From Xanthomonas cucurbitae (lineage in GTDB: Bacteria; Pseudomonadota; Gammaproteobacteria; Xanthomonadales; Xanthomonadaceae), in contig NZ_MDED01000020.1 in the NCBI RefSeq assembly GCF_002939885.1, positions 1-64,000 of the forward strand: a stretch of DNA of 64,000 nt, in the 5' to 3' direction. The notes beneath the pieces are model-generated. The model did no database searches. It was given only the letters and a program-made list of their open reading frames with translations, and had not been told where the DNA came from. The position numbers and the translations under genes were made by a program. Below are positions 35,630 to 40,938 of the stretch, in pieces (the first letter of the stretch is position 1; the number at the start of each line of letters is the position of its first letter).

Positions 35630-36217
35630 TCAGCGCGCCAGCTGGCGCTTCAGCCAGGCGCTGCGCGTGGCCGGCGGCTGCGCCAGCAGGTCTGCGCGCA
35701 GGCCATCGCGCTGCGTCGGCGGGGTGCGTTGCGCCAGCACCGCCAGCTGCGCCAGCTGACCGGCATCCAGGCGACGCAGCAGCGTCAGCAGGCGCTCGCG
35801 TTCGGACGCCGGCACATACCCCACCAGCGGCTGCAGCTGCGGATAGAACGCTCCCAGCTGCGAGCCCAGGCGCCAGCCGTCGCGATACAGGCGATCCATG
35901 GCGGTGAACTGGGTGCGCAGGGCGCGTTGCTGGTCCTCGGGCAGGCCATGCAGACGCTCGCGTGCCTGCCGCAGCACCACCCGGTCGGTGGCGGTGAGAC
36001 CGTTCCACGCCGCATAGCGGGCACGCAGCTCAGCCTGCTGGGCCGGCGTCAACGCGGCCCAGCGCGCGCGTTGCTGGGCGGCGCTGGGGATGGTCGGCGT
36101 CGCCGCGCCGGGCGAAGGCGCCGTGGCGCCACCTTCATCCAGCGCCGCCGGCAGGGCCTGGGCCGAGGCGCTGCCGAGCGCGGCGTACAGCAGCAGCCCG
36201 GTCCACTTAGTTCGCAT
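35630..36217 (-). CDS. secreted DUF3106 protein, coupled to the sigma-like membrane gene
   Basis: The protein has 195 residues from the ATG at 36217 (MRTKWTGLL); an adjacent ATG at 36220 adds one. A signal peptide (about 1-19, ending SASAQA) precedes a helical DUF3106 region (about 45-190) of short repeated helices: RARWAALTPAQQAELRARYAAW, then LRQARERLHGLPEDQQRALRTQF. It is probably periplasmic. The start overlaps the end of the upstream gene by 11 to 14 bases, so both are translated together. DUF3106 resembles periplasmic CpxP/Spy-like helical stress proteins in composition, but no function is established. Confidence 0.75.
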   Translation of the reverse strand: MRTKWTGLLLYAALGSASAQALPAALDEGGATAPSPGAATPTIPSAAQQRARWAALTPAQQAELRARYAAWNGLTATDRVVLRQARERLHGLPEDQQRALRTQFTAMDRLYRDGWRLGSQLGAFYPQLQPLVGYVPASERERLLTLLRRLDAGQLAQLAVLAQRTPPTQRDGLRADLLAQPPATRSAWLKRQLAR

Positions 36218-37238
36218 CATCGACGGTCTCCAACGGCGCGGACGGCTGTTCGGCGGCGGTGGCATGCGCGCCGGATTCGTCTGTCGGAACCGGGTGCCCG
36301 GCCGCATACCAGGCATAGAAATCGGCCGAACGGGCCAGCTCCAGGTCCGGATCGGCCAGCATCGCCTGGTCGCGTGAATCCAGCGCGGGGGCGGTGGCCG
36401 GCTCCGGCAGGTCGGCCGCGGGCAATTCTTCCACCAACACCGGGGCGGCATCGGTCACATGCAGCACGCCGGCGGGCGCCTGCGACACCGGCTCCGGCGG
36501 CAAGGCCGGCCGGCGATGCGTCCACCACCAGGCCAGCACCGCCAACAGCAGTGCCAGCGCCAGGACGCCCAGCACGATGCCGGCCTGGCGGCGATCGACC
36601 CGAGGCCATTGCCATTGCCGGGTGCTGCGCACGCGGGCGGGACGCTGGCGCGCCGGGGCCGGCGACGGCGCTGCCGGGGCGGCCGGCTGCAGCGGCATGC
36701 CGGCCAGCGCCGCATCGCGCAGCTGGCTCAACCGGCTGAGCTGGGATGGGCTGAGGTCGCGCAATTCCTGTTGCGCCGCCTCGGCCAGCACCCGCCACGC
36801 CTGGGCATCCGGGTTGCCGGCCGCATCGCGCGGACAGGCGCGGGCCAGCGCCTGGCGATAGTCCGCCACGGCCACCCCCTGTACCTGGCTGGCGGCGTCC
36901 TCCTCCAGCCCGGCCACGATCCGCAGCAGCAGCGCCAGCCGGTCGGAAGTCTGCAGCCGACCCACTGCCGTGAAGGGCGGCAACCAGGTGCCCGGCATGG
37001 GGTCGCGGCGCAGCGGTGGAGCGGCCGCCAGCAGGCTCCAGAAGCGCGTTGGCCAACCCGCCATCGGCCGCCCGGCGGCCTGGCTGCCGAAGGCGCGCAA
37101 CGCCGCTGCCAGGGCGCGCTCGGCCGCCGCCACGTCACCGCACTGCAACTGTGCCAGCACCAGACCCCGGCGTTCGACACCGCGCAGGAACGCAGACAGC
37201 GCAGCGGGAGTCGCGGGGGTATCGGGAACAACGGTCAT
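36207..37238 (-). CDS. one-pass membrane protein with degenerate ECF sigma-like N-terminus
   Basis: The protein has 343 residues. Residues 11-75 (FLRGVERRGLVLAQLQCGD...TRFWSLL) resemble sigma region 2. Residues 98-134 (LALLLRIVAGLEEDAASQVQ, then GVAVADYRQALAR) match the helix-turn-helix layout of region 4. An Arg/Pro-rich linker leads to one membrane helix (220-239, IVLGVLALALLLAVLAWWW), and the remaining 100 acidic residues would be periplasmic. I use the ATG at 37238 with a GGAGTTC ribosome site. It overlaps the secreted DUF3106 gene. A tethered, possibly inactive sigma-like sensor is the simplest reading. The sigma resemblance is by eye and needs profile comparison. Confidence 0.65.
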   Translation of the reverse strand: MTVVPDTPATPAALSAFLRGVERRGLVLAQLQCGDVAAAERALAAALRAFGSQAAGRPMAGWPTRFWSLLAAAPPLRRDPMPGTWLPPFTAVGRLQTSDRLALLLRIVAGLEEDAASQVQGVAVADYRQALARACPRDAAGNPDAQAWRVLAEAAQQELRDLSPSQLSRLSQLRDAALAGMPLQPAAPAAPSPAPARQRPARVRSTRQWQWPRVDRRQAGIVLGVLALALLLAVLAWWWTHRRPALPPEPVSQAPAGVLHVTDAAPVLVEELPAADLPEPATAPALDSRDQAMLADPDLELARSADFYAWYAAGHPVPTDESGAHATAAEQPSAPLETVDDAN

Positions 37239-37342
37239 GGGAACTCCAGCATCGGCCGGCATGATACCGACGCAGATCCTTGACGCGACGGCTTGACAGA
37301 TCGCACCACTGTTGCTCCGCTCGCGACCGCTGCCTGCGCAGG

Positions 37343-37556
37343 TTGTGCACAGCAGGCGCGATGCCGATACGCGGCCGTCTGTCAACTCCGGGTTTTTCTT
37401 TATTGCATTCGTGTTTCACGCCTAACATACTGATTTTATTTATCTTTATCCATGTGGCTAAAAAATGTCCAAGAGGTTGGGAAGGCCTGTGATGCCGCCT
37501 TCACGGCGTGGAGCATGCGACTAATTCACAGCCTTATCCACAGGCGGTGTGGATAA
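37343..37556. promoter_or_regulatory. DnaA-box cluster beside an AT-rich stretch, upstream of priA
   Basis: Two perfect DnaA boxes face each other: TTATCCACA at 37534-37542 and its complement TGTGGATAA at 37548-37556, five bases apart. TAATTCACA (37522-37530) and TTGTGCACA (37343-37351) each differ from TTATNCACA at one position. Between them, about 37390-37470 is unusually AT-rich for this genome (TTTTATTTATCTTTATCC). The whole 459-base gap separates the divergent sigma-like gene and priA. The arrangement resembles a small DnaA-binding or origin-like site. Confidence 0.6.
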
Positions 37557-37697
37557 ACCTGTTTTCTCAGTCCTCGTATAGGTTTACGTCGTGTTTATTA
37601 CCCAGGTCACAGAAATGCGTCGCAACGCATCACGCCGGACTCACGCGCAGGAATCGTGTCCGTCGGTGGTGGCCGGCGGGGTCGGTAGACTGCGTGG

Positions 37698-39920
<2,223 letters not shown>

Positions 39921-39937
39921 CTGGATAAACAGTCTCG

Positions 39938-39963
39938 TCGTAGGAGCGCGCCTGAGCGCGACG
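39938..39963. repeat. TAGGAGCGC repeat, copy in direct orientation
   Basis: TCGTAGGAGCGCGCCTGAGC followed by GCGACG, 17 bases after the priA stop. It is identical over 23 bases to the left arm of the palindrome at 40017-40090. Confidence 0.7.
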
Positions 39964-40016
39964 GGCTTGGTGCGCGAGGCGCAACGCGTCCTCACACTGG
40001 TGGTACTTGACGCATA

Positions 40017-40090
40017 GTCGTAGGAGCGCGCCTGAGCGCGATGAGGCGTTATCGGTAACGCCTCATTGCGCTCAGGCGCGCTCCTACGAC
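40017..40090. repeat. 74-bp near-perfect palindrome of TAGGAGCGC repeats
   Basis: The 34-base arms 40017-40050 and 40057-40090 are reverse complements with a single mismatch (position 40040 against 40067, a possible G-U pair in RNA). They surround a 6-base loop. Each outer arm is one copy of the TAGGAGCGCGCCTGAGCGC repeat. It lies between the convergent priA and NYN genes and would form an extremely stable stem in either transcript, so it may serve as a bidirectional terminator or mRNA stabiliser. Confidence 0.8.
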
Positions 40091-40137
40091 ACACGTGATC
40101 TTCGACGGTGCGGTCATGCGCATTGCAGGGGTGGTTT

Positions 40138-40938
40138 TCATTTGCCTGGAGCAGGCTTGGCGGGTGCACGCACGGTTGGCTTGCTCTCCGATGCGACAGG
40201 TGGTGCGGTCTTCGCGCCTTTAGGCGTGTCGCGCACCCACAGTGCCTGCTCGTCCTGCTTGATCTCGAACACGCCGATCGCACGCACCAGATCGCTGAGC
40301 TTGCGGTAACCGTAATTGCGCGGGTCGAACGAGGCCTGGTTGGCCACCTGCTTGCCCACCGCGCTCAGCAACGCCCAGCCATCGTCTTCGCAGGCGCTGA
40401 CGATGGCGTTGCGCAGCATCTGCACCAGCCGCGTGTCGCCGCGCAGCGCGGTGGCATCCTTGCGCCCGGCGGCAGTGTCGCTGGCTGCGGCGGCCTGTTC
40501 GCCCAGGGCTTCCACGTAGGTGAATTTGGAGCAGGCATTGACGAACGGTGCCGGTGTCTTTTTCTCGCCAAAGCCATAGACCTTCATGCCATCGGTCAGC
40601 AGGCGCATCACCAACGGGGTGAAGTCTGCATCGCTGGAGACGATGGCAAAGCCATCCAGATTGCGCGCGTACAACAGGTCCATCGCATCGATCACCATGG
40701 CCATGTCCGAGGCGTTCTTGCCGGAACTGTAGGCAAATTGCTGGATCGGCCGGATTGCATAATCGTGCAGCGCCGCTTCCCAGCCCTTCAGGTGCGGGCT
40801 CTTCCAGTTGCCATAGGCGCGGCGCACATTGGCCACGCCGTAGCGCGCCACTTCCGCCAGCACCACGTCGATCTTGCCGGCGGGCGCGTTGTCGGCGTCG
40901 ATCAGCAGGGCGATCCGCTTGTCGGGATGATCGGTCAT
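40138..40938 (-). CDS. NYN-domain (PIN-like) protein with C-terminal OST-HTH/LOTUS domain
   Basis: The protein has 266 residues from the ATG at 40938; a TTG two codons upstream is less likely. The NYN nuclease-like domain (about 5-140) keeps the acidic residues expected for metal binding: LLIDADNAPA, DMAMVIDAMDLLY and IVSSDADFTPLV. A LOTUS/OST-HTH domain (about 160-245, LRNAIVSACEDDGWALLSAV...YGYRKLSDLVRAIGVFEI) probably binds RNA. A basic Pro/Ala tail ends the protein. Relatives include LabA/MARF1-like proteins and suspected RNases. It follows a membrane protein gene by two bases, so the two are co-transcribed. Confidence 0.88.
   Translation of the reverse strand: MTDHPDKRIALLIDADNAPAGKIDVVLAEVARYGVANVRRAYGNWKSPHLKGWEAALHDYAIRPIQQFAYSSGKNASDMAMVIDAMDLLYARNLDGFAIVSSDADFTPLVMRLLTDGMKVYGFGEKKTPAPFVNACSKFTYVEALGEQAAAASDTAAGRKDATALRGDTRLVQMLRNAIVSACEDDGWALLSAVGKQVANQASFDPRNYGYRKLSDLVRAIGVFEIKQDEQALWVRDTPKGAKTAPPVASESKPTVRAPAKPAPGK

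Follow-up and report, generated by a model that had tools for sequence, protein, structure and literature searches.

The region upstream of priA

The window, by which we mean the whole stretch of 64,000 nucleotides from Xanthomonas cucurbitae that was analysed, carries at positions 37698 to 39920 of the plus strand a gene of 740 codons for the replication restart helicase PriA. A preliminary description of this DNA had already named the gene, and the assignment was borne out by matches above cut-off to the NCBIfam models NF004067 and TIGR00595. The protein is 75 and 73% identical to PriA from two Stenotrophomonas loci, 71% identical to that of Pseudoxanthomonas and 69% identical to that of Luteimonas. 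The upstream gene, which is weakly assigned, lies on the minus strand (36210 to 37238, the latter being its proposed start) and shows similarity to a degenerate RNA polymerase sigma factor (NF006550, E 7.7e-5, a match that falls far short of the cut-off). The gene in the same upstream place reads by eye as a sigma factor in two other genomes, G035 and G037.

The intergenic region between these genes contains an exact head-to-head pair of DnaA boxes at 37534 to 37556, TTATCCACA-GGCGG-TGTGGATAA; the perfect inverted pair and its 5-base spacing are as first described. Read on the minus strand, the pair comprises DnaA box I (TTATCCACA, 37548 to 37556), which faces priA, and DnaA box II (TGTGGATAA, 37534 to 37542), head to head with box I across the spacer at 37543 to 37547. 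A third minus-strand box, TGTGAATTA, occupies 37522 to 37530 and is set off from box II by a 3-bp spacer (37531 to 37533), giving a core that reads TTATCCACA-CCGCC-TGTGGATAA-GGC-TGTGAATTA. The preliminary description had placed a one-mismatch box 4 bases to the left of the pair. The box itself is there (TAATTCACA at 37522 to 37530), but it lies 3 bases away and has two mismatches to TTATCCACA (one to TTWTNCACA). The further box that it mentioned, which we take to be TTGTGCACA on the plus strand at 37343 to 37351, was also found, and all 25 members of the genus that were compared carry the 8-mer TGTGCACA in this part. Single boxes with at most one mismatch are at chance level in the window (3 found, 3.0 expected). 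The whole genome of 4.42 Mb has a single perfect pair, and a longer core pattern with two mismatches allowed was likewise found at one place only in this genome.

On the side of the core that faces away from priA lies an 80-bp AT-rich stretch (37393 to 37472) with an AT content of 70%, in a window that is 33% AT; 0.0016% of the 80-mers of the window reach that value, in agreement with the AT-rich segment reported at the outset. Two minus-strand matches to the consensus sequences of nucleoid proteins fall inside it: a Fis-consensus site, GGACATTTTTTAGCC (37456 to 37470), at offset 86 from the start of box I, and a candidate IHF site, AATCAGTATGTTA (37423 to 37435), with one mismatch to the consensus, at offset 121. 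Since it holds both sites, the AT-rich stretch may be regarded as the Fis/IHF part of the locus. The sole promoter-like match, a weak sigma-70-like one on the minus strand at 37433 to 37460, overlaps the Fis-IHF stretch, so that part of the AT-richness could be due to the promoter of the upstream gene. A terminator-like match at 37534 to 37556 was discarded, as it is the DnaA-box pair itself. An Rfam scan of positions 36000 to 40500 returned nothing at gathering score, and the RNA fold of the stretch has a z value of -2.3.

Comparison with the DARS sites of Escherichia coli

The order and spacing of the three boxes are those of the E. coli DARS sites, which turn ADP-DnaA back into ATP-DnaA. 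According to the text of a 2017 review, boxes I, II and III are equally spaced in DARS1 and DARS2, and box I is opposite to boxes II and III (PMC5742627). The core of DARS1, which lies between bioD and uvrB, reads TTATCCACT-ATTCC-TGTGGATAA-CCA-TGTGTATTA, and that of DARS2, near mutH, reads TTATTCACC-TTTTC-TGTGGATAG-AGT-TGTGAAGAA; the primers printed in PMC4585315 for replacing DARS2 boxes I to III abut exactly this DARS2 segment on both sides. The window shares the arrangement of box I opposite to boxes II and III with the same 5- and 3-bp spacings, and its box III differs from TGTGTATTA of DARS1 at one base. On a 27-position core template, the best scores were 25 for the window, 24 for DARS1, 22 for DARS2, 19 for the E. 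coli datA region and 16 for the oriC region. Shuffled versions of 18 priA loci reached best scores of 16 to 19, which puts datA at the top of the shuffle range. A second and weaker core-like site (20 of 27) was observed in E. coli about 300 bp beyond the DARS2 core (L042, 3452).

DARS2 further resembles the window in that its Fis and IHF sites lie beyond box III, as do the two sites predicted here by consensus match. In DARS2, the IHF sites IBS1-2 were placed at offsets 93 and 109 (covering 93 to 121) and a perfect Fis consensus at 145, these E. coli offsets being those of our own consensus scan, with the Fis match at 145 taken as lying within FBS2-3. The 3-bp gap between IBS1 and IBS2 given in the text of PMC4245941 agrees with the scan. 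DARS2 is thus ordered core, IBS1-2, FBS2-3 by these scan offsets, whereas the window is ordered core, Fis (86), IHF (121). DARS2 also has a non-essential FBS1, as stated in passages of PMC8682772 and PMC4245941, and a one-mismatch Fis match was detected at offset 63 of DARS2. Subject to the place of FBS1, the predicted layout of the window, with Fis before IHF, differs from that of DARS2. It differs as well in its genomic position, the neighbour being priA instead of rppH/mutH, and in that one core was found in the genome. DARS1 shares the core geometry with the window and matches the IHF consensus, with two mismatches, at the same offset of 121, whereas it lacks a Fis match (at most one mismatch) near 86. 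It is described in PMC5742627 as active in vitro without added factors. Among cores that start like DARS1 (L041 at 2108; L115, L117, L148, L163 and L192), an IHF match with at most one mismatch lies exactly at offset 121 in 5 of 8.

The genome encodes several proteins of the DnaA machinery. Its DnaA conserves Leu290, Asp269 and Arg285 of the E. coli protein, and Leu290 is given in PMC5742627 as needed for DnaA oligomers on the DARS2 core. IHF-alpha and Hda are also encoded, together with a Fis homologue (48% identity over 80 residues).

Conservation of the core and its neighbours

The core, the Fis site and the IHF site, at no more than one mismatch each, are kept at the same offsets in 25 of 25 genomes of the genus, and the conservation of the boxes that the preliminary description had called for is thereby found. 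This count includes L071, which has a one-base change in box III and stood outside one genus alignment. The IHF site at 121 is perfect in 9 of these genomes and has one mismatch in 16, the window among them; the Fis site at 86 is perfect in 15, the window included, and has one mismatch in 10.

We then examined 180 non-redundant cores, which were reduced from 192 by identity of the core and its near flanks and leave out the E. coli loci as well as cores less than 250 bp from the left or about 335 bp from the right end of a locus. When IHF matches with at most one mismatch in plus orientation were tallied, 102 fell in the bin of 100 to 125 bp from box I, against 0 to 14 in the other bins; perfect Fis matches with an A/T centre peaked at 54 in the bin of 75 to 100 bp, against 0 to 3 elsewhere. 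Most IHF sites lie at offsets 119 to 122 and most Fis sites at 85 to 87. Among 113 far cores, taken from 109 loci, 43 have the IHF site (shuffle mean 0.41, maximum 3), 45 have the Fis site at no more than one mismatch (shuffle mean 0.53, maximum 5), 18 have a perfect Fis site and 21 have IHF and Fis together. The shuffles permuted single bases within offsets 60 to 160, and loci were counted without correction for kinship. Removal of 10 cores with titles from the order of the window left 103 non-redundant cores of the wide scan, among which untitled bins of the order may remain; 39 of these have the IHF site and 40 the Fis site (shuffle maxima 2 and 3), while 64 are without IHF and 63 without Fis. 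With the cores that start like E. coli DARS1 or DARS2 also removed, the counts were 33 for IHF and 38 for Fis among 84 cores (shuffle maxima 3 and 3). The full core-Fis-IHF layout is frequent but far from universal.

The core itself is widespread. The perfect pair was found in 36 of 41 near genomes, that of the window included, and its reversed pattern in none; the spacer is 5 bp at every listed place, although 3 to 7 bp were allowed, and each genome has one copy except G031, which has it at two places. These two sites of G031 (L004 and L078), one of them upstream of priA, both have TGTTAATAA as box III, and the second adjoins a gene that we take to encode a cysteine synthase. The perfect pair is missing from G026, G027, G029, G038 and G039. 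In the first four of these the core was not found at priA; G039 has one weak priA-like match and none of full length, and stands outside the 18 priA loci scored. Of 21 loci, a set that includes the window and of which 10 belong to its genus, 20 have box III, at up to 3 mismatches, 3 bp beyond box II: L003 lacks it, L002 has it with 3 mismatches and the other 19 with 2.

Across the order of the window, the core pattern was present in 250 of 299 genomes and 73 of 85 genera, and the reversed control in none. The rows of the family of the window show 0 or 1 copy, with the pattern absent from five of them (G139, G159, G254, G258 and G268), while some genomes of other families have 2 or 3. A class scan, with a pattern of two perfect boxes no more than 20 bp apart that would miss both E. 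coli DARS cores, matched 119 of 274 genomes, and its reversed control 2 of 274. The forward places listed number 75; the spacer is 5 bp long in 73 of them and 17 bp long in two, and 17 bp is also what separates box I from box III. When named genomes were scanned, at least 119 stretches were obtained, by title nearly all from gamma- or betaproteobacteria; the exceptions among the listed stretches are two from Paenibacillus, one from a Planktophila bin, one from an alphaproteobacterial bin and several from bins titled 'Proteobacteria'. In the two Paenibacillus species (L133 and L179), far outside the proteobacteria, the core-like match lies beside the same gene family. In an Alcaligenaceae bin (L160, 2482 to 3404) four cores follow one another at intervals of about 300 bp, and the other 79 among the matches listed hold one each.

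The core often accompanies priA. All 10 genus loci (the window and L012 to L020) have it linked to priA. Of the 20 loci L001 to L020, 15 have the core and priA no more than 1.5 kb apart. Another 149 loci were searched for priA in the DNA fetched around the core, and 34 gave a match: 16 of the 30 that come from the order and 18 of the 119 that come from named genomes. In L205, priA is about 5 kb away. Such an association would be expected if DnaA bound to the box pair repressed or activated priA, as the preliminary description had proposed in suggesting a DnaA-controlled promoter, a function that is not exclusive of a DARS. In many lineages the core is upstream of priA with box I toward it; in the priA cluster, all 24 cases have priA on the box I side, and its start is the gene end nearest the core in 22. 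In G027, where the core is missing, two separate boxes with one mismatch lie within about 600 bp upstream of priA (G026, G029 and G038 have none there). The link is broken in other genomes, however. No core above shuffle level was found around priA in G030, G032, G035 and G040, and about 600 bp upstream of priA in these four contain no DnaA box at up to one mismatch. Their core lies elsewhere: 3.3 kb from priA with another gene between in G035, and by genes that we read as sbcB and recR in G030, G032 and G040. In G034 and L146 the core sits at the 3' end of priA.

The predicted anatomy of the priA promoter also argues against such control. A likely -10 element of priA, TAGACT, is predicted on the plus strand at 37686 to 37691, about 130 bp beyond the core and 6 bp before the start codon. 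The motif TANACT is found 6 bp before the ATG in 8 of 11 loci compared, all eight from Xanthomonadaceae (L021, L022, L023, L113, L153, L155, L203 and L219), and is missing before the priA ATG in L025 to L027. Because of this position, the sequence suggests a leaderless priA transcript, whose first base in the window would be some 140 bp beyond the core. Moreover, the Fis and IHF sites of the genus are on the side opposite priA. A DnaA switch for priA thus appears unlikely. DnaA may act on priA, but the site can be explained without such control, and priA is best described as a frequent neighbour. Besides priA, the genes often found next to the core, presumably uvrB, rppH/mutH, sbcB, recR, xseA and hemW, include several of repair or recombination.

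Position of the core relative to dnaA

In the genome of the window, dnaA is on another contig (C14), and three boxes with at most one mismatch are present in the surrounding 4.3 kb. The gene dnaA was located in eight genomes of the genus; it is on the contig of the core in six of them and on a different contig in G000 and G008. The distances in the six are about 44, 201, 625, 638, 638 and 695 kb, those of G015 and G018 being measured across a contig end on the assumption of a closed circle. A constant distance between core and oriC was therefore rejected, and the linkage to priA is steadier than the distance to the origin. The adjacency of DnaA boxes to an AT-rich stretch would suit a cryptic or second replication origin, and a cryptic origin was among the options of the preliminary description. 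This we regard as extremely improbable: the gene dnaA, with its own boxes, is on the other contig, the distance from it to the core varies from 44 to 695 kb in the genus, E. coli oriC is without the core geometry (16 of 27), and the Fis and IHF sites explain the AT-rich part.

Three to four DnaA boxes with an IHF site, on one contig with dnaA at 44 to 695 kb in 6 of 8 genus genomes, could also be expected of a passive titration site for DnaA or of a datA-like site that promotes ATP hydrolysis, and any DARS also binds DnaA. E. coli datA does combine DnaA boxes with an IHF site, as described in PMC5742627, and has the opposite effect on DnaA. Its region as fetched scores at best 19 of 27, against 25 for the window; it agrees with the template at 4 of the 9 bases of box I and has no core geometry. 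Titration alone needs neither the fixed 5/3 geometry nor Fis and IHF sites at fixed offsets. Titration or a datA-like activity is, on this comparison, quite improbable. The likelihoods given here for the DARS and for its alternatives are not shares of one total, as the alternatives are not all exclusive.

A proposed role in recharging DnaA

The three-box geometry, with candidate Fis and IHF sites at fixed offsets, leads us to conclude that the site is very probably a DARS that turns ADP-DnaA back into ATP-DnaA. The DnaA-reactivating site listed among the options of the preliminary description is the one that the predicted anatomy fits in detail. The IHF site of the window itself, which has one mismatch, and an order of putative helper sites unlike that of the essential sites of E. 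coli DARS2 speak against it. The site most likely belongs to the apparatus that sets the timing of chromosome copying and would not be a priA switch.

By analogy with the E. coli DARS, from which DnaA binding, nucleotide exchange and timing at the site are extrapolated, we propose the following mechanism. On the minus strand, the DARS would begin with box I (37556) and end with the IHF site (37423). ADP-DnaA would bind boxes I to III, and the DnaA molecules on boxes I and II would come into head-to-head contact over the 5-bp spacer. With Fis bound at 86 and IHF at 121, the DNA may then be shaped and the complex activated, upon which ADP would be released, and the empty DnaA would leave and pick up ATP. 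The pool of ATP-DnaA would thus rise for the next initiation at oriC.

A site of this kind is known in E. coli; what differs here is the Fis-before-IHF layout, the single copy and the address next to priA. The DARS2 core was described in 2014 as conserved among gammaproteobacteria related to E. coli (PMC4245941), and the wording of the 2017 review is E. coli-proximal beta- or gammaproteobacteria (PMC5742627), as far as the passages of these two papers go. Titles and abstract openings in the open PubMed Central literature disclosed no DARS in Xanthomonas or its relatives, or beside priA. It is conceivable, though rather unlikely, that gamma- and betaproteobacteria share an ancestral DARS with the order core-Fis(86)-IHF(121), from which the E. 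coli sites are derived, and that the repeated placement by priA couples DnaA recharging to the supply of the restart helicase, balancing fork repair and initiation. If the DARS reading is true, the DnaA recharge cycle would be wider than described in the text of PMC4245941 and PMC5742627, and the locus would provide a one-site system for DnaA recharging together with a sequence rule for finding such sites in other genomes.
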